Shown here: positions 12,545 through 22,293 of the stretch, piece by piece
Layout: each line of letters opens with the position of its first letter
How positions within the stretch are numbered: position 1 is the stretch's first letter
Assembly (NCBI GenBank): GCA_022510565.1
Contig: JAFLTE010000010.1
Coordinates: 1-64,000, forward strand
Source of the DNA: Lachnospiraceae bacterium
Lineage (GTDB): Bacteria > Bacillota > Clostridia > Lachnospirales > Lachnospiraceae
Reading direction: 5' to 3'
DNA: 64,000 nucleotides
Made by a program: the position numbers and the translations under genes
The notes under the pieces: model-generated
The model's input: the letters and a program-made list of their open reading frames with translations, nothing else
Told to the model about the DNA's origin: nothing
Database searches by the model: none

Positions 12545-12596
12545 TTCTGCAATCGGCGTAGACACAGGATGCCGATTTTGATACATGAGATGCATC

Positions 12597-13511
12597 TTAT
12601 TCGACATTCTTTATGTATTTACACTTTGGAAATGAACTGCATCCATAAAAATTTTGTCCGGCATTCTTACCCTTTTTAGCCGTACGTAAAACCAACGGAG
12701 ACCCACATTGAGGGCAGGTTATCTGCTCTTGTGTTTCTGGTATCCCTTCAATATTTGCGTCGCTGTCCGACAGATTCTGAATAATTTCCTTTTCCGCTTC
12801 TTCTTGCTTTATTCGACTGTTGATACTATCAATATGAGCTTGCCTGACATCCATAGAGACCTGTGAATATGGATATAATTTCTCATAAAGTTCCATCACA
12901 TTATCCATTTCTAACGTTGCTGTTGTTTTGGCATCTATTTCCCCAACTGTCTTACAGAGAATATTTCTTTTAATCACTACCGCATTTGATGAGAAAATAT
13001 CTACTTTTTTCAAAGTACATCTTTCTGAAAACACAATGACAGAATGTATCGGTATTGTCTCATCTTGAAGTAAATTTTTTAACCACTTTATATGCAACTT
13101 GTTTTGCATAATTGGATTTAGAAAATGTTCTTTATGAGAACGCCTTCCTTGTGGTAATGTTTGAGTCCATGTCTTACCCTTTTCGTTTCCAAAAATCCAT
13201 CCACTGTAATTTTTGCTCTCGAACACATACAATCCACTCTTATATATCATAAGAACATCGACCTCTGTGGTGTCGCCATTATCCCTCGGAAGATAGCAAT
13301 TAAAAAGGAATTTTGCACCCTCCGCCTCATAGGGACGGAGATTTTTGTATGTCAAATACTCCCCATATCTTCCCAAATCCCATTTTACTGATAAATATGA
13401 ATAGCCTGTAATCTTATGGTAAGTGGACTTGGTATATTGCCAAAAATCAATGACATATGGAATTAACCCAATTATTACAATAAAACAAATCATTACATAT
13501 GTTTGTGTCAT
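12597..13511 (-). CDS. Membrane-anchored NERD nuclease-related protein with topoisomerase zinc ribbon
   Basis: I prefer the ATG at 13511 (MTQTYVMICFIVIIGLIPYV) preceded by AAAGG; a TTG at 13562 would add 17 residues but lacks a ribosome site. The N-terminal membrane segment is followed by a NERD domain (about residues 45-165: LGRYGEYLTYKNL, TEVDVLMIYKSGLYVFESKNY, GWIFGNEKGKTWTQ, with the catalytic-like D, E-x-K motif). A helical linker leads to a C-terminal C4 zinc ribbon (CPQCGSPLVLRT, FYGCSSFPKCKYI) as in type I topoisomerases. NERD proteins are thought to act on DNA or as nuclease relatives; the true role is unknown. The gene is A+T-rich and lies next to the recombinase and invertible segment, so it may be part of the same accessory region. 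Confidence 0.88.
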   Translation of the reverse strand: MTQTYVMICFIVIIGLIPYVIDFWQYTKSTYHKITGYSYLSVKWDLGRYGEYLTYKNLRPYEAEGAKFLFNCYLPRDNGDTTEVDVLMIYKSGLYVFESKNYSGWIFGNEKGKTWTQTLPQGRRSHKEHFLNPIMQNKLHIKWLKNLLQDETIPIHSVIVFSERCTLKKVDIFSSNAVVIKRNILCKTVGEIDAKTTATLEMDNVMELYEKLYPYSQVSMDVRQAHIDSINSRIKQEEAEKEIIQNLSDSDANIEGIPETQEQITCPQCGSPLVLRTAKKGKNAGQNFYGCSSFPKCKYIKNVE

Positions 13512-13685
13512 TTTTGTCAGAACCTTTCTCCCACACTTATCTACTATGTTTGTAATTTGCAATGCAATTATACTATTTATTTAGTTATATTTCAAGTTAT
13601 TTTTATCGAATTTTCATATATAAATATTGCTCCATCATCCTTAATGCGGTATATCTGAAATAAAAACAAAAGAGGAGATTTTACT

Positions 13686-14606
13686 ATGAACACTTTACAA
13701 ATGCATTACAACAATTACTTAGAATTCTGTCAATTCCAAAAAAGATTGGATTCCAAAACATTAAAGGCCTATCGGATTGATTTGACACAATTCATTCAGC
13801 ACATTTCGGTCAACGATATTTCAGAAGTCACTCCTGATATTCTGGAAAAATACATTGTCACACTACACCAACAGTATAAACCTAAAACCGTAAAAAGAAA
13901 GATTGCTTCACTAAAAGCCTTCTTTCACTATCTTGAGTACAAAGACCTGATTGAAAGAAATCCTTTTAATAAAATACGTGTGAAATTCCGAGAACCTGTC
14001 ATTCTCCCTAAAACCATACCGCTTCATACCGTTGAAGTCTTCCTAGCCACCATATACAAACAGCAAAAAAATGCACCGACGCTTTATCAACGTAGAAATG
14101 CATTGCGAGATGCAGCGGTTATTGAAATGCTATTTGCTACCGGGATGAGAATCTCGGAGCTATGCTCCCTGCGGCTCAACGATGTCAATTTATATGAACG
14201 TACGATTTTGATTTACGGAAAAGGAAGAAAAGAACGCATTATTCAGCTCGGAAACAATGATGTGATAAATATTTTAACACAATACAGAACGGCATATGAT
14301 GAGCAAATCCGTGCGTGCGGCTATTTTTTTGTAAATCAAAACGGAAGCTCACTATCCGATCAATCCATTCGCAGAATGATAAACAAATATACTTCCCTTG
14401 CCGCAATAGAGCTGCATATCACTCCACATATGTTCCGGCACACCTTTGCCACCAGCCTGCTGGAAGCGGATGTTGATATTCGGTATATCCAAGAGATGCT
14501 TGGGCACAGTTCAATTAATATTACAGAGATATATACTCATGTCGCTATGTCGAAACAGCGAGATATACTGACGACGAAGCATCCGAGGAAGGATTTTTGT
14601 ATATAG
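13686..14606 (+). CDS. Tyrosine recombinase, likely the invertase of the adjacent segment
   Basis: The 306-residue protein has an N-terminal SAM-like core-binding domain (about 1-95) and a catalytic domain with the full set of active residues: R155 (GMRISEL), K179 (YGKGRKER), H248 and R251 (HMFRHTF), H274 (LGHSS) and nucleophile Y283 (IYTHV). It is a XerC/XerD-like protein of usual length with GAGGAG eight bases before the ATG. Its stop lies 40 bases before a perfect 62-bp repeat whose inverted partner is 6.2 kb away. I see no terminator between the gene and the repeat. From this context it most likely inverts the segment 14647-21006. It is more A+T-rich than core genes of the window. Confidence 0.93.
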   Translation: MNTLQMHYNNYLEFCQFQKRLDSKTLKAYRIDLTQFIQHISVNDISEVTPDILEKYIVTLHQQYKPKTVKRKIASLKAFFHYLEYKDLIERNPFNKIRVKFREPVILPKTIPLHTVEVFLATIYKQQKNAPTLYQRRNALRDAAVIEMLFATGMRISELCSLRLNDVNLYERTILIYGKGRKERIIQLGNNDVINILTQYRTAYDEQIRACGYFFVNQNGSSLSDQSIRRMINKYTSLAAIELHITPHMFRHTFATSLLEADVDIRYIQEMLGHSSINITEIYTHVAMSKQRDILTTKHPRKDFCI

Positions 14607-14646
14607 GGATAGGTTAATAATTGTAATTTCGGATTTCTCTTTTCAT

Positions 14647-14708
14647 ATTTTGATGGATAATTAAATGTTATCTTTCAAATATGTCAAGGAACAATCCTAG
14701 ATCATGAA
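14647..14708 (+). repeat. Left 62-bp inverted repeat of the invertible segment
   Basis: Identical in all 62 bases to the reverse complement of 20945-21006; matching stops sharply at both ends. It contains GATAA-TTAAATG-TTATC (14656-14672), a 5-bp inverted repeat around a 7-bp centre, the layout of a tyrosine recombinase core site; with the next bases the arms agree at 6 of 8. It lies 40 bp after the recombinase stop. A weak promoter-like pair (TTGTAA 14621-14626, CATATT 14644-14649) stands just outside it. Confidence 0.95.
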
Positions 14709-14804
14709 TCAAAAAATATGTACAAATATGTTTTTTAGAGCGGGACAATGTTAAAAACTTTACAATCTATTTTCACAAATAAAGCGGACAAGGATGTGAA
14801 ATTT

Positions 14805-15757
14805 ATGAAACCATTTTTCTCTATATTGGTACCCATATATAATGTTGAACCATACCTTACTAAATGCCTAGATAGTCTAATTCACCAAACATTTACGGAT
14901 ATTCAAATTATTTGTATAAATGATGGCTCAACTGATCGTTGCCAAGAAATTTTGGAGGAATACAGTAAAAAGGATTCTAGAATTCGAATTATAAATCAAA
15001 GAAACAATGGATATGGTGCAGCTTTAAATAGAGGATTAACGTACGTAAAAGCAGATTATATTTCCATTATAGAACCAGATGATTATTTGAAACTTGATGC
15101 ATATGAAAAGTTTTTTTGCGATATTCTGCAAAATCCAAATATAGATATCATAAAATACGCGTATTGGCAATTCAGGGATATTGATGGAGTAAAAAAAATA
15201 GAGCCATCTGCATCCTCTAAACTTAGCTTACCAGAGATTCCGTTTCAAATTACGCAATATCCTCAATTATTATTATATCATCCATCCATTTGGTCATGCG
15301 TATACAAAACAACTTTCATACAGAAACATAATCTTTGTTTTATCGAAGCGCCTGGGCTGGTTGGACAGATAATCCGTTTTTTATTGCTACTATGTGTCTA
15401 GCAAAAAGTATACTTTGGAAAAATCAAAAAGTATACTTTTACAGACAGGGGCACAAAACTGCTTCAAGTAATTTAAAAGACTGCAAAATTCCAATTCTAA
15501 GACTTATAGATATCTTCAACATTATTGATCAACATAAAGTTATAGACTTTGGAGTTTTATTATGTATATATAAGAGAGTTTTTAGCTATATAAATATTGT
15601 TCGAGATAACGTTAACTATAGTGAAAACGAAATAGAACCTCTAATTTATAAACTATTACTCAAAATGGATGCCACCGTAGTCAATACAGAATTTTTTGGC
15701 GTTCAGGAAAAGGAATTATATCACAACAATGTAATAAAGAACGAGGCAAATGTATGA
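14805..15757 (+). pseudogene. Family 2 glycosyltransferase with a one-base frameshift
   Basis: The first frame gives MKPFFSILVPIYNVEPYL, a standard GT-A start with CINDGSTDRCQEIL and the DxD-like IIEPDDYLK; it runs out of frame near 15355. The reading continues in the +2 frame with AGWTDNPFFIATMCLAKSI and ends at 15757. Adding one G to the GGG at 15354-15356 restores EAPGAGWTDNPFF, as in intact relatives, giving about 317 residues. So either the gene is broken, or the tract is a switch, or there is a sequence error. I prefer the ATG at 14805 to one at 14748, which adds residues unlike the family. It overlaps the ATP-grasp gene by four bases. In the present orientation it stands behind the recombinase gene, not the strong promoter. 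Confidence 0.85.
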
Positions 15758-16788
15758 AAATATTAGTTTTAACAACGTCCAGCTTTGCGCCAACACACAC
15801 TTCTAAATTATTGGCACAAATAGAATATTTGAATTCATTTTCAGATATGGATATAACAATAAAAAAGGACTCTTCATTGACTGATACAGAATACTACATC
15901 ATGACAGATGACTATGACTGCGTTTTTCCCACAACAGTTTTTGAGTATTCTAGTAATCGAAGAGAAATTTTATCTTTTAATAGAAGACTTTATCAAATCC
16001 TGGAATACCATTGTCAAGCTTACATTGGGAGTCAGTTATTCGTACATATGCTATTAAATGATAAGGCTCTGACAAATTACAGATGTGGCATGTCTTTGCC
16101 AAGCATTTTGCTCACCAGAGGATTATGGCAAAATCGAAATGCTGATGCAATAGCACATATTAAGTCTGCGCCTATTCCTATGATTGTAAAACCGAATACT
16201 TTGGCTGCATCCATAGGAATTTCAAAATCCTCTATTGCTTATACTATTGAACAAGCGCTAATAATTATTGAAAAACAATTCTCAGAATTTCCATATGTAA
16301 ATGAACTATTACTTGAACAATATCTTACAAATGCCCAAGAATATACGGTTTCCGTAACAGGAAATGGGGAAAAAAAGCTTTGTAGTACAACGGCCCTAAT
16401 AACACGTACCCAAGAATACGAAATGTTTTCTTACCAAAATAAAAATCTACATGCTGATCAACGAACACTAGCATATACACATCAGATGCCGGAACATATA
16501 CGAACAGAATTAAAAAAAAGTGCTTTGCAAATATCGAGACTTTTAAATGTGCGAGATTATTCTCGATATGATTTTTTAATGGACGAGAGCGGTTTGCTTT
16601 ATCTGATTGATGCAAACTCGCTCCCTGCCTTAGGTTCAAACTACCTCCTAGAATATGTTAATCAGAAGAAAATACAGGAAGTACAACTATTTTCCCTTAT
16701 ATTAACTGTGTTTTGTAAACGGATGAACTACATCTATCCAAAATGTACAAGCGAATTACCCGAAGAAATTTTAGAGCATATTCTCTAG
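15754..16788 (+). CDS. ATP-grasp protein related to D-alanine-D-alanine ligase
   Basis: The 344-residue protein has an N-terminal Rossmann-like part (MKILVLTTSSFAPTH) and an ATP-grasp fold: PMIVKPNTLAASIGISK as the nucleotide-binding loop, ELLLEQYL, the EYTVSVTG strand, and the metal-binding end RYDFLMDESG then LIDANSLPAL, resembling R-x-DF and LEVN-LPG of Ddl but with D in place of the usual E. ATP-grasp enzymes join a carboxylate to an amine or thiol. Coupling to a glycosyltransferase gene by ATGA suggests joint work on a glycan, peptide or cell-surface product; the substrate is unknown. Its last 18 bases overlap the 3' end of the opposing SIR2-STAND gene, so expression of one would be antisense to the end of the other. 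Confidence 0.82.
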   Translation: MKILVLTTSSFAPTHTSKLLAQIEYLNSFSDMDITIKKDSSLTDTEYYIMTDDYDCVFPTTVFEYSSNRREILSFNRRLYQILEYHCQAYIGSQLFVHMLLNDKALTNYRCGMSLPSILLTRGLWQNRNADAIAHIKSAPIPMIVKPNTLAASIGISKSSIAYTIEQALIIIEKQFSEFPYVNELLLEQYLTNAQEYTVSVTGNGEKKLCSTTALITRTQEYEMFSYQNKNLHADQRTLAYTHQMPEHIRTELKKSALQISRLLNVRDYSRYDFLMDESGLLYLIDANSLPALGSNYLLEYVNQKKIQEVQLFSLILTVFCKRMNYIYPKCTSELPEEILEHIL

Positions 16789-19700
16789 TGCATGGTGTAA
16801 TATTTCTAATTTCTTGCGAGAATCCGCCAAATACACATGTTCACATTGTTTAAGCTGCATGTAGTAGTTAATAGAGTAGTGACAGGCTTCAATACCTTCC
16901 TTTAAAATTTCACGAGTAATAAAATCGCCATTCAAGTTATCACATAAAATTCCGGAAATTTGATTGCAACAATCTGCTGCTCGAAAAGGAATGTGATAGC
17001 GAGATGCTATTTGGAACCCTTCACGTAGTTTGTCTAAGGCTTCAAGCGGCTTCCCTTGCAGTGTCAGTACTCTCGCCCACATACGGCAGCTTTGTATTTT
17101 ACGAACCGGAACTGGATATTTAGGAAGAAAAGCATCCATTTCTTTTGCATATGAAACAGCCGTCGATATCGTTGTCATATTTAAATAGAATCCAGCAACA
17201 GTACTTTCAATAAGTTCTGCAATGATTTCCAACAATAATGGAATATGATTTATTTCTTGGGCGTAGTTATATACTTTTTCAAACAAATCCCTAGATTTAT
17301 AGTAATTATCATAAGTAATTTCTCTGGTTACATTTTTATTAAATAGGTCATTTTGTACTTTGTTTTTATATATAATTCCTATATTCATATAAAGTCTATA
17401 TTTTAAAGATAAATCTGTTACAAATTCCACAGGATATTCTTGATAAATCTGAAGTGCTTGGTCGAACCATGTTAATTCGCGATACATGGCTCCTAAATCC
17501 AAAAGTGCCTGACAAGCCTCATTAAAGCAAGCATTTTCATAGAGATTTTTGTAAACCTTTTCCATTAAATTTACAGCATCATTTAGTTGTCCCTTATTTC
17601 TTAGCAAAACAGCCAACAACTGGTCATTATTGTCAATTAATCTTTGAGGTAAACACCTTAAATCCAATCTATTTATTTTATGGCATAGACTAATGGCAAA
17701 ATCATAAGATGTTTCGGTTTCATCTATAGGAAAGGTCCAAATATATTTTGCATAATTATAGTAACTAGATGCCATGAATAAAGGTGTGTTTGTGATAATG
17801 GAATGTTGAATATAATCATTAATCTGCTTTATGGAGTTTAAAGGAAAAATATTAATATTGTTTATTTTTTGCGCCATCTGTTCTAACAACACGCTGACAA
17901 ACTTTTCCATAGCTGAACGGCAGATAAACTCTTCTACTAATTTTAAAACATCATATAAGATTTTTTCTTCAACTAGAAATCTTGCGGTTAGGATAAGCAG
18001 CCATTCAATATCATCACTAATAATCGAAATCAAGTATATTTTAAGCATATCGAGATTTGTTGATTGGAGGGTACTTAATAATGTATAAATACTATTCTGG
18101 ACAATAGGGGAATTTTGTTGCCTTAACTTTAGGTCAGAAAAAGCTTGCTTCAAGTTCCAGGCATAACTTTTCTGTATGTATTGTATCAAAAAGAATTCTT
18201 CTATTTTATCATGGCTGAATATGATTAAATTCTGGCAAGGCTGTGTTCTTTGGAATATATCTTGTTCCACAGCCCATTCAAAAATTTCAGATGCATATTC
18301 TACTTTTTCCGGCAAATTCATAAACAATTTTGAAGTTGTCAGAACTTCTTCGGATATATCGAAATACTTGTCATATATTACGTAATTTATAATTTCATTA
18401 AGACTGCTAACGGGGATCTGCTGAGCCAACGCAATATTTTGTATATTTTTAAACCAGAGTTCATAAAGAGATATTTGGCTAGAAACCATTTCATCTGGCA
18501 AGTCTTCAGAAATCATTTTACATATCATATTTAAATAAAGAGGATTATAAATAATTTTACCAAATCTTTTCTTTATTATATGAATATCTGTTTCCATAGG
18601 ATAAGAATACTGATTTACAATCTCTTCCATATCTTTATCCGACAATGACGGAAAATTATAAACGGTAGATGCCTCTCCATTTTTATCCACTTCAGAAAAA
18701 AAAGAACTTGGAGAGGGTATAATGTGGAGACTATTCTGTATTTGATAATAAAATTCTGTTCTACATGTAACTATCATTCGAATATTTGTTAACTGTTCCA
18801 TTGAAAGAAGATCACAAAATTGCAAAATTACTTTATAAACAGATAAGATATGTAGTAAAGGTGCATCCATTTCATTGATTCCATCTATAATTAAAACTAA
18901 CATCTGATGGCGCATTTTCAACATAGTATTTAAATATTTTATTTTATCCGAATCAAAAATTTCTTCACCAAAAACAGAACCCAACACATTCTCTGTTTCT
19001 TCAATTTGTTTGGCTGAAATGGGAAAGAATATGTATTTTTCTATAGATGAATCTATTATTATTTTTTTAATTAAGCAAGTTTTACCTATACCACTGTCGC
19101 CTGCTATAAATAAACCACTATTTTCTGAATTCAGAAATTTTAGTATGGTTGCATATGATTTGTTACATATTATTTTCGTTCCATCAAATTGACCGATAAA
19201 TGACGATTTCATTTTTTCCGATTTTAGCATCAATTCATCAATAATTCCAAATGTAGCATTATCGTATGATTCAACTAAATTCACTTGAATATATAGGTTT
19301 TCAAAATTCAGAATTCGACGATTTCTAATAGCCTGCTCAGAAAAATACCGAGATAATAGATTGTCAAAAATTTCTTGATACACAGATGGTGGCATTTGAT
19401 CTAGTTGAATGTCAATATTATTTTCATGGGAGAGCACTTGATAAAGGTATTGTTCCAACGTTTTTTTATAATTGAGTCCAATAACATCTTCTCCAACACC
19501 ACTTGTCTTGATAAAAAGTAAAATTCTTTGCAATAACATAAAGACAGACGCAAACTCCCTAAGGGATATTTGTTTTAAAATCATCTGTAAATCTTTTCCT
19601 TTGTCTAGAGTTATGATAATTTCACAATATGGCTTTGGAAATGTGGGCATCCCAGAAATAGGTATACTACTTAGCCAGCTTAAAGCATCCCAAAAATCTT

Positions 19701-20913
19701 GATTTATATCTGGACTCTCTTGATTTTTTGCGCACTTTTTTCTAAGTAAAGATATCAAATCACTATTTGTTACAGAATAACCTTGACAGAGGCACCAAAT
19801 TTCGATAGATAGTGCCAAGAGCAAGCCATCTATCTCGTTTGATATGGAATACAACATCTCAGCAGGAAAAACTTTCTCGTTTAATATTTCAATAATAGAT
19901 GTGAGCAACTTATCATGTGAGTCCGCGTAATAAAGAGAACAAGAATTCCATGATAATTCTTTTAAATATTCCTCCAGAATATTTAGCATTTTAATAAAAA
20001 GCTTTTGAAAACGTATATTTAAGGTTAGGTAATCATTAATATAGCTTTTTTTCCACAACTCGTAAAATCTGTTTTCCTGACGTGATGAACTATCATGCAA
20101 CATCAAGAATATTTTGTTAAAAATTGAATCAAAATCACCATATTCAGGGCCATCCAAAAGATTATATTCTGAATTTCTCTTTTTTAACAGATTAAGGATA
20201 GGACCATTTTCATATTCGTTATAGTAGTCTGGCTTATCATAAGTAATCCAATAGACACAGTGGTTAGCAGAATCACTTAATGCTTGAATAATTCCCATAT
20301 CCTGTCCACGATATCCTACAATAATCAAAATGGAATCTGTTAATAGTTTTATGACATCTTCTATTTCCTTTGGAAGCTTATATAATTCTGATGGTGCGAA
20401 ACGTAACTGCCCTAATTTCAAATCTCCATGTGCTTTTAGTAAAGTAAAATTTGGCTCATTACCTATAACCATCTTTTTTGTGCCTACTTGTAAATTGTAG
20501 GACAATCCCTCTAATACAGTATCTAGCATAGGGTCAAAGTTCGTAGTAATAATATTGTTTATATAGTTTTCTTCAATTAAACTTCTTAACTGCTTATAAC
20601 CAAGAGATGGTTCCATATCTTTGAAGTAGTTTTCCAACAAATGAATCCTGTCAATATTCCCTTGACCATTCCAAATAGTATTTACAAATTGTTCATATAA
20701 ATTTGTCCATTTTTCCGGAATGACCTCATCCTTACAGGCATATTGGGATACTAAATCTCGGATAATTCCAGCTGTCGTTATATTCTTTTTTGATGATGAT
20801 AACGAACAGCCAGCTCCTAATAATAGTGTTACTTTTTTTCTATTATTTTCTTTGTTGCTCCTCAAATTCTGTACTAATTTAATTAGACAGCGTGTTTGAT
20901 GATCATTACCCAT
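16771..20913 (-). CDS. SIR2-NACHT/STAND-TPR protein, probable antiphage NTPase
   Basis: This 1380-residue protein has an N-terminal SIR2-like domain with NAD-binding motifs GAGCS (33-37), TTNFD (N125, D127), KAHGD (H162) and GYRGQD (200-205). After a helical region comes a STAND NTPase of NACHT type: Walker A GDSGIGKT (605-612), Walker B LIIDGINE with D677, a sensor-like VTCRTEFYY and the NPLYLNMICK helix. The C-terminal third is helical and rich in TPR-like pairs (NEACQALLDLGAMYRE, QALQIYQEYP, KPLEALDKLREG). This layout matches Avs5-like SIR2-STAND defence proteins, in which the C-terminus senses a phage protein and the SIR2 domain destroys NAD. It starts 31 bases inside the right repeat, behind the inward promoter at 21005-21033, so it appears to be in the ON position. 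Confidence 0.88.
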   Translation of the reverse strand: MGNDHQTRCLIKLVQNLRSNKENNRKKVTLLLGAGCSLSSSKKNITTAGIIRDLVSQYACKDEVIPEKWTNLYEQFVNTIWNGQGNIDRIHLLENYFKDMEPSLGYKQLRSLIEENYINNIITTNFDPMLDTVLEGLSYNLQVGTKKMVIGNEPNFTLLKAHGDLKLGQLRFAPSELYKLPKEIEDVIKLLTDSILIIVGYRGQDMGIIQALSDSANHCVYWITYDKPDYYNEYENGPILNLLKKRNSEYNLLDGPEYGDFDSIFNKIFLMLHDSSSRQENRFYELWKKSYINDYLTLNIRFQKLFIKMLNILEEYLKELSWNSCSLYYADSHDKLLTSIIEILNEKVFPAEMLYSISNEIDGLLLALSIEIWCLCQGYSVTNSDLISLLRKKCAKNQESPDINQDFWDALSWLSSIPISGMPTFPKPYCEIIITLDKGKDLQMILKQISLREFASVFMLLQRILLFIKTSGVGEDVIGLNYKKTLEQYLYQVLSHENNIDIQLDQMPPSVYQEIFDNLLSRYFSEQAIRNRRILNFENLYIQVNLVESYDNATFGIIDELMLKSEKMKSSFIGQFDGTKIICNKSYATILKFLNSENSGLFIAGDSGIGKTCLIKKIIIDSSIEKYIFFPISAKQIEETENVLGSVFGEEIFDSDKIKYLNTMLKMRHQMLVLIIDGINEMDAPLLHILSVYKVILQFCDLLSMEQLTNIRMIVTCRTEFYYQIQNSLHIIPSPSSFFSEVDKNGEASTVYNFPSLSDKDMEEIVNQYSYPMETDIHIIKKRFGKIIYNPLYLNMICKMISEDLPDEMVSSQISLYELWFKNIQNIALAQQIPVSSLNEIINYVIYDKYFDISEEVLTTSKLFMNLPEKVEYASEIFEWAVEQDIFQRTQPCQNLIIFSHDKIEEFFLIQYIQKSYAWNLKQAFSDLKLRQQNSPIVQNSIYTLLSTLQSTNLDMLKIYLISIISDDIEWLLILTARFLVEEKILYDVLKLVEEFICRSAMEKFVSVLLEQMAQKINNINIFPLNSIKQINDYIQHSIITNTPLFMASSYYNYAKYIWTFPIDETETSYDFAISLCHKINRLDLRCLPQRLIDNNDQLLAVLLRNKGQLNDAVNLMEKVYKNLYENACFNEACQALLDLGAMYRELTWFDQALQIYQEYPVEFVTDLSLKYRLYMNIGIIYKNKVQNDLFNKNVTREITYDNYYKSRDLFEKVYNYAQEINHIPLLLEIIAELIESTVAGFYLNMTTISTAVSYAKEMDAFLPKYPVPVRKIQSCRMWARVLTLQGKPLEALDKLREGFQIASRYHIPFRAADCCNQISGILCDNLNGDFITREILKEGIEACHYSINYYMQLKQCEHVYLADSRKKLEILHHALENML

Positions 20914-20944
20914 TTCTATTTCTCACTTTACCCTGGCTTTTTGT

Positions 20945-21006
20945 TTCATGATCTAGGATTGTTCCTTGACATATTTGAAAGATAACATTTAATTATCCAT
21001 CAAAAT
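20945..21006 (-). repeat. Right 62-bp inverted repeat of the invertible segment
   Basis: Exact reverse complement of 14647-14708. The outer end overlaps by two bases the -10 element of the inward promoter, so transcripts from that promoter would start inside the repeat and carry most of it as a common 5' leader whichever cassette follows. The same GATAA-N7-TTATC core is present. Confidence 0.95.
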
Positions 21007-21033
21007 CATACCATATATAACTACTTTTGTCAT
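21005..21033 (-). promoter_or_regulatory. Inward-facing promoter outside the right repeat
   Basis: On the minus strand: -35 ATGACA (21028-21033), a spacer of exactly 17 bp, and -10 TATGAT (21005-21010) preceded by TGG, an extended -10. Each hexamer matches the SigA consensus at 5 of 6. It reads into the segment and now drives the SIR2-STAND gene. Because all but two bases lie outside the repeat, it does not move on inversion. Confidence 0.78.
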
Positions 21034-21078
21034 TTATTTTTGCAAATAATTAATTATAAAGATTGAATCACCCCCCCC

Positions 21079-22293
21079 CTACACAATCCTTCTCACAGTA
21101 ATAATACTCCTGTAAGTCGCCGACGTAATCTTTATACCCGTGCGCTCCGTGCTGGCATGTACAATCTGACCGTTGCCTATGTATATACCCACGTGTCCGC
21201 CGTAGTAAATAATATCTCCCGGCTGTGCCTCGGAATAAGACACCGCACGCCCCACGCTTGATTGGGCATAGGAGCTTCGTGGAAGTGAATAACCAAACGC
21301 CTGATAGACAGCCCACACGAAACCTGAACAGTCCGCACCATCGGTTAGGCTGGTACCGCCCGCTTTGTAGGGATTCCCGATATACTTACATGCAAAATCT
21401 GCAATCTGCTGCCCTTTGCCACCGCCTCCGGAAGATGACGGTTTGTAAGTCTCCTGATTACTGCTGCCGGAATCCGTCTGTGAAGCAAGCTGCTCCTCTT
21501 CCTGACGTTTACGTTCCTCTTCTTCCTTGCGCTTACGTTCTTCTTCCTCTTTGCGCTTGCGCTCCTCTTCCTCTAATTTCCTTATCTGGGCAGTCTCCTG
21601 CTTGATTTTGGCGGTGTAGGCGGCCGCCTCCTGTCTGGCCTTCGCCAGAACCGCGTTATAGTTTTCGTACTCTTGCCTTTTCTGCGCCAGAACTTCCTCT
21701 ACATATGCCTGTTCTTCCTGAAGTTCTATCTTGGAAGTCTCCAACTCGGACTTTTCCTCTTCCAGTATATCCTGCAGTTCAGCCACCTGCTGTACGGTAT
21801 CTTTATACTCTTCGAGGAGATTACGGTCGTACTCGTATAGTTCTTCCACGTACCTGGCTTTATTCATCATATCGCCCATACTCGTCGCGCCGAAGAACAT
21901 CTCCATATAAGAAGCCTCACCACGCTCATACATGAACTTAATACGAATCTTCATAGCCTCGTACTGCTCCTGCTGAACCGCCAGTGCCTCATCATAAGCA
22001 ATCTGAGCCTGTTCAATGTCCGCTTCCTTATCCTGAATGGCTTCCTGAATCAGATTAATATCCGTCAGAAGCGCTACCATCTCCGCATCCAAATCGCTTA
22101 TTTCTTCCTCGATAGCCTCCTGCTCTTCTTCATAGCCGGAAATCTGTTGATTAACATTTTCAAGCTGAGACTGATTGTTTTTCAGGTCTTCCTGCAAATC
22201 GGAAATAGTGGTAGCCGATACCGAATCTACCACTAAGAGAAAACATATGAATGCCATCGCGACGCATAGCGCCTGTGTACATCTTCTCTTCAT
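21079..22293 (-). CDS. Secreted coiled-coil NlpC/P60 peptidoglycan hydrolase
   Basis: The 404-residue protein has a signal peptide (MKRRCTQALCVAMAFICFLLVVDSVSA), a long coiled coil (about 30-250) that ends in tandem heptads of the type ERKRKEE, a Ser/Gly linker, and a C-terminal NlpC/P60 domain with C322 (GADCSGF), H367 (GGHVGIYIG) and a third polar site in VHAS. This is the CwlO-type design: cysteine endopeptidases of the cell wall, often controlled by FtsEX through the coiled coil. The gene lies 17 bases after asnS, so they are probably cotranscribed. A run of nine G begins at its stop codon (21071-21079) and does not alter the protein. Confidence 0.93.
   Translation of the reverse strand: MKRRCTQALCVAMAFICFLLVVDSVSATTISDLQEDLKNNQSQLENVNQQISGYEEEQEAIEEEISDLDAEMVALLTDINLIQEAIQDKEADIEQAQIAYDEALAVQQEQYEAMKIRIKFMYERGEASYMEMFFGATSMGDMMNKARYVEELYEYDRNLLEEYKDTVQQVAELQDILEEEKSELETSKIELQEEQAYVEEVLAQKRQEYENYNAVLAKARQEAAAYTAKIKQETAQIRKLEEEERKRKEEEERKRKEEEERKRQEEEQLASQTDSGSSNQETYKPSSSGGGGKGQQIADFACKYIGNPYKAGGTSLTDGADCSGFVWAVYQAFGYSLPRSSYAQSSVGRAVSYSEAQPGDIIYYGGHVGIYIGNGQIVHASTERTGIKITSATYRSIITVRRIV

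Follow-up and report, generated by a model that had tools for sequence, protein, structure and literature searches.

A candidate invertible DNA switch setting immune-type proteins opposite enzymes in Lachnospiraceae

The window analysed here, i.e., a whole stretch of 64,000 nucleotides (nt) from a Lachnospiraceae bacterium (assembly GCA_022510565.1, contig JAFLTE010000010.1, positions 1 to 64,000), contains between positions 13,686 and 21,033 a recombinase gene followed by a segment with inverted repeats at both ends, a locus which, judged from its sequence and that of its relatives, is very probably a site-specific inversion switch whose segment the recombinase can flip. The presumed invertase, a XerC/D-like tyrosine recombinase (13686–14606, + strand; PF00589, E = 7e-44), ends 40 base pairs (bp) before the left arm of the repeat. 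The two arms are exact reverse complements over 62 nt (14647–14708 and 20945–21006) and, after one mismatch, reach 69 nt at 99% identity (left, 14647–14715, +; right, 20938–21006, −), with a core site at 14655–14672 in the left arm and at 20981–20998 in the right one. A query of 151 bases around the left arm found two copies in total in the genome of origin (3.2 Mb in 135 contigs, approximately 90% complete). A chance origin of the repeats is ruled out by the 62 identical bp and by the core, which is common to the relatives.

Between the arms, two gene sets run inward, and their 3′ ends overlap by 18 bp (16771–16788). The left set (+ strand) begins with a family 2 glycosyltransferase split into two overlapping frames, the first of which (14748–15401) matches PF00535 at 1.6e-31, while the second (15335–15757) has no Pfam match alone and is 58% identical over 130 amino acids (aa) to the homologue in the related locus L158, an undivided protein of 335 aa. 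It is followed by a D-Ala-D-Ala-ligase-like ATP-grasp ligase (15754–16788; PF07478, 1.5e-21), whose top match in the PDB is a D-Ala:D-lactate ligase (3.4e-11). The right set (16771–20913, −) encodes a SIR2-STAND immune-type NTPase of 1380 aa, which matches SIR2_2 (3.7e-06), NACHT (2.1e-07) and SIR2-type models of PADLOC. This protein has the motifs GAGCS, TTNFD, HGD and GDSGIGKT, and its activity seems plausible, given that alignments with two homologues show the SIR2 and NTPase motifs conserved. Outside the right site, an inward promoter is predicted at 21005–21033 (−), with the form ATGACA-17-TATGAT and an extended −10 element, which scores in the top 1.6% relative to random windows.

Much of this layout had been claimed in an original prediction made from the letters alone, and the exact repeats, the complete recombinase outside the left copy and the tail-to-tail arrangement are verified here, while the promoter that it placed outside the right end corresponds to the promoter-like sequence just described. 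Its glycosyltransferase/ATP-grasp cassette stands in that both families are matched, with the correction that the glycosyltransferase is divided between two frames. The same prediction had called the immune protein “Avs-like”, a membership that is unsupported, given that none of its nine PADLOC matches at E ≤ 0.01 is to an Avs-named model, in a library which we take to contain Avs models.

The recombinase has the residues R155, K179, H248, R251, H274 and Y283, presumably the catalytic ones, which are invariant across 18 aligned sequences. It scores 246.7 bits against the NCBIfam XerC model, under the cut-off of 335, and is also under the cut-off for XerD; as a separate, above-cut-off XerD lies at G000:C61 of the same genome (the letters G, C and L denote genomes, contigs and loci throughout), the recombinase is ruled out as the canonical XerD of the chromosome. 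Among the 77 genomes of the genus, 45 have a relative of the recombinase (a count that includes the genome of the window itself), as do 39 of 299 genomes sampled from the family. The sequences following the recombinase stop have in common a near-palindromic, dif-like core, GGATAAT-N5-RTTATC, which is present in 46 of the 77 genus genomes, with three control matches over all 77, and which occurs in 38 of the 45 genomes with the recombinase versus 8 of the 32 without it (p = 3e-7). Pairs of sites also occur on contigs without the recombinase, which may therefore act in trans. At some loci (L036–L039, L047 and L057–L059), the recombinases adjoin a conserved block of genes and lack a nearby site, and some of these genomes have site pairs on other contigs (e.g., G017:C7, G019:C6 and G014:C1).

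A scan of the genome contigs provided at least 594 stretches, 585 of them confirmed, and the best 80 are referred to as the named loci. Inverted pairs of sites with the same spacer, as in the window, where the two spacers are identical, were found in 9 of the 41 loci of a first set (window included, and L061 through its 82-nt repeat), in 20 of the 80 named loci (including two repeats), in 13 of 20 stretches chosen for containing sites, and in 11 of 20 loci of other genera (three of them repeats). With L073, L148, L180, L185 and L186 left out as duplicates, these amount to 48 distinct segments of 2.0 to 7.0 kilobases (kb). Among the fetched loci, the same-spacer pairs are inverted in 50 cases versus one direct, in a count that skips self-palindromic spacers, tallies nested pairs apart and leaves the window out. 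Given this near absence of direct pairs, excision cassettes are ruled out, and the direct site repeats that would mark an integron-like cassette array are likewise confined to this one pair. In the sole direct pair (L081), the sites are 4832 bp apart and the recombinase lies between them. In L043, L106, L124, L093, L162, L163 and L165, the sites are double and nested, with two distinct spacers that are mirrored between the ends.

The organization of the genes is equally regular, as they point inward in 46 of the 48 segments (38/40, counted with open reading frames (ORFs) of at least 150 aa, and 8/8 in other genera, with ORFs of at least 100 aa). The gene starts lie at a median of 66.5 nt inside the site, and the tail-to-tail gap has a median of 1 nt in 39 segments, whereas 28 other convergent pairs are a median of 135 nt apart (p = 3e-5). 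In L183, an IS200-like transposase (12576–13181, −) separates the two sides of a segment.

Signs of flipping come from the assemblies themselves. For 45 of the 80 named loci, the contig runs out within 10 kb downstream of the recombinase. A site lies no more than 200 bp from the contig end in 25 of these, and in 19 the break comes at most 200 bp after the recombinase stop. On the upstream side, 25 contigs stop within 10 kb, three of them at a distance of 200 bp or less. Moreover, two contigs, G029:C69 (4822 bp) and G026:C66 (5006 bp), consist of a bare segment with a site at each end, the repeats being 20 and 29 nt long, respectively. As an assembler should pass repeats this short, the breaks would indicate that both orientations were present. 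Among the 24 adjacent segments that could be classified, the enzyme side is on the right in 10 and on the left in 14, and related pairs lie opposite ways round, beside the recombinase in L093 versus L130 (21–33% identity), and also in L129 versus L196 (50–60%; the L129 segment is upstream of its recombinase) and in the window versus L158 (52–62%; the promoter side of L158 is weakly predicted).

The predicted promoters are mostly one-sided. In 22 of the 27 segments adjacent to a recombinase, the far side has the higher inward promoter score (p = 0.0005), and in the first 21 of these the far flanks score above random windows (p = 2e-7), while the flanks on the recombinase side do not (p = 0.15). 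Among the segments of other genera, which were held out, the far-side promoter agrees in 5 of the 6 adjacent and in 1 of the 2 non-adjacent ones.

With regard to the cargo, the classes of which were assigned by hand from Pfam, PADLOC and homology (several STAND labels being sub-cut-off Pfam matches or homology), 45 of the 48 segments have enzymes on one side and a non-enzyme on the other. An immune-type protein (STAND, TIR, SIR2 or Mrr) stands opposite enzymes in 31 segments, a pentapeptide-repeat protein in seven (L076, L091, L124, L129, L157, L187 and L196), and a protein of unknown type in another seven; two segments (L033 and L132) set a TIR protein against ThsA, one (L105) is incomplete, without a right-hand ORF of 150 aa, and none carries enzymes alone. 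Two irregular segments are still counted as immune/enzyme, i.e., L052, of +−+ arrangement with a second glycosyltransferase on the + strand, and L177, in which a hexapeptide-transferase ORF precedes the STAND gene, and the enzyme of both L061 and L165 is a kinase-like match under the Pfam cut-off. Among the partner enzymes are GT2 and GT4 glycosyltransferases, ATP-grasp ligases, SHMT-like proteins, aminotransferases, ATP-grasp/radical-SAM proteins, carbamoyltransferases, an IspD-like protein, a sugar epimerase, a polyprenyl synthase and an OTCase-like protein, many of them, though not all, of glycan type by family. PDB searches with two uncharacterised partners gave one weak and unhelpful match for a protein of 562 aa (family A2) and none for one of 412 aa. 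The pairing of an immune-type protein with an enzyme is thus the commonest of the class, and no accident of the window locus.

Taken together, the conserved site, the inverted pairs, the mostly one-sided promoters, the contig breaks and the occurrence of related pairs in both orientations provide strong comparative support for the either/or inversion put forward in the original prediction, and a switch with a single promoter is the likely form of it, as far as sequence comparison can tell. The recombinase would exchange strands at the two cores and flip the 6.3-kb segment, such that the gene set adjoining the outside promoter would be transcribed, while the opposite set would lack one and, owing to the overlap of the gene ends, would be transcribed in antisense. 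As assembled, the window would have the SIR2-STAND protein ON and the glycosyltransferase/ATP-grasp set OFF, and a population would contain both cell types. For most of the class, the two states would correspond to an immune-type protein and to biosynthetic, often glycan-type, enzymes, respectively. That immunity is traded in this way for a change of the cell surface is plausible, although the odds are placed slightly below even. The broader proposition, that the Lachnospiraceae have one class of switch with exchangeable cargo that sets an “immune” against an “enzyme” cell state, either as a surface trade or as a split immune pathway armed by flipping, is evenly balanced.

A number of observations weigh against the inversion switch. 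A complete site pair is missing at most of the fetched recombinase loci, being found in 9/41, 20/80 and 11/20, and eight genomes have the site with no recombinase at E ≤ 1e-50, among them G026, with its bare segment, and G037, with a pair. The evidence on orientation comes from assemblies, with one genome per species, in which no strain showed both orientations, and the contig breaks are indirect; the related gene pairs that lie both ways round agree with a flipped form in other Lachnospiraceae, while the close relatives L043 and L111 share one orientation. As for the promoters, the score is a home-made one and the flanks on the recombinase side are partly coding, which may bias a comparison in which 5 of the 27 adjacent segments are reversed, L066 strongly so, with its best promoter on the recombinase side. 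Over 37 segments, the best inward score exceeds the best outward one in 22 (p = 0.057), and the top 5% of the score is reached by 12 inward versus 7 outward promoters. In the window, moreover, the recombinase is not followed by a terminator (−2.1 kcal/mol), and the left gene set may thus be read through. Finally, the confrontation of ThsA with a TIR protein in L033 and L132 is odd if one side is made at a time.

The first of these two loci is the nearest relative at the chromosomal site of the window, with flanks at 76–78% nucleotide identity that match up to the recombinase stop and again from the NlpC/P60 gene onward. Its segment (L033:8485–10638) has other cargo, namely convergent genes for ThsA (SIR2-SLOG; PADLOC 1.1e-59, PDB ThsA 1.9e-29) and for a ThsB-like TIR protein, which matches the PADLOC ThsB model at 5.6e-12 over approximately 105 aa, and a non-Thoeris TIR model better, at 6.3e-21. 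The segment of L132 likewise has ThsA (1.3e-100) opposite a TIR protein. The gene pair of the window itself recurs in L158, at a different chromosomal place, and, given the other cargo in L033, the cargo seems to be exchanged as whole pairs. In these flanks, a NERD-domain protein with zinc-ribbon matches (window 12597–13562, −) lies directly upstream of the recombinase and is kept in L033, and a run of nine C (21071–21079), outside the predicted promoter, lies just before the 3′ end of the NlpC/P60 gene (21079–22293, −).

The ThsA/TIR pair of L033 does not suit a choice between immunity and surface, and such pairs suggest that the two sides may cooperate instead; this is the main rival of the either/or switch, though an unlikely one overall. 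The two sides would belong to the same immune pathway, as in Thoeris, and the inversion would alter their ratio, separate a dangerous pair or briefly arm the cell after a flip, with both proteins present. This is consistent with the partners staying together, as SIR2-STAND, ATP-grasp and glycosyltransferase do in L158, with L056/L149/L153, L043/L111 and L066/L162 as further cases; segments that move as units would, however, equally keep them together. Furthermore, the TIR protein of L132 is a weak match to ThsB (0.0085), and most of the partner enzymes have no known role in making signals, which counts against a shared pathway.

It is less probable still, and quite improbable, that both sides are expressed together, one from the outside promoter and the other through transcription continuing from the recombinase gene, with the inversion shifting levels only. 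The lack of a terminator between the recombinase and the left site of the window agrees with this, as does the lack of a strong one in 24 of 52 loci; on the other hand, a strong terminator lies between the recombinase and the site in 28 of these 52 non-identical loci (55 with three identical repeats included) versus 0.5% of shuffles, and the left flanks have no promoter enrichment (p = 0.15). That the repeats mark the two ends of a mobile element or are left over from an earlier duplication, with no inversion at all, fits the exchange of segments between L033, the window site and L158, and is nevertheless highly improbable, given the position of the recombinase outside the repeats, the spacers that match within pairs, the 50 inverted pairs to one direct and the contigs that break at short repeats.

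Regarding known systems, the closest precedent examined to this inversion switch is in Ureaplasma, where, according to the available part of the report (PMC3047005), the opposed genes UU172/UU171 and mba/UU376, for potential membrane or surface proteins, are alternately expressed through inversion at inverted repeats. There, as far as that part describes it, the inversion joins a shared 5′ portion to either gene, whereas the window class swaps whole unrelated gene sets, often has an immune-type protein against enzymes and has a recombinase gene beside many of the segments. The Cdi sites of C. difficile (PMC5903667) are likewise short inverted-repeat switches in Clostridia, although, in the portion available, the short invertible regions control adjacent genes, with signalling or chemotaxis genes nearby, and the words defense, glycosyltransferase and Lachnospiraceae are absent from its text. 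The likeness to Thoeris lies in the ThsA and TIR proteins of L033 and L132, with the difference that their genes converge between inverted sites, and that the window itself has neither ThsA nor ThsB. PinQ (PMC12529663) also involves a recombinase inversion that affects phage adsorption, in this case by a serine recombinase of a cryptic prophage, with no immune-protein switch mentioned in the available part of that source. No description of the locus class was found in the open-access literature, a coverage that leaves preprints and most subscription papers outside.

If the inversion switch is true, it would be a recurrent either/or DNA switch of innate-immune proteins, each paired with an enzyme, which makes testable how bacteria carry costly immunity that depletes nicotinamide adenine dinucleotide (NAD) or acts through nucleases. 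With the core site and the recombinase together as a key, one could search for new immune proteins and for the partners of these, and the ThsA/TIR pairs make it possible to ask whether the two sides replace each other or work together. The relatives of this bacterium would carry many such switches with differing gene pairs, and the switch class may explain the poor assembly of such loci.

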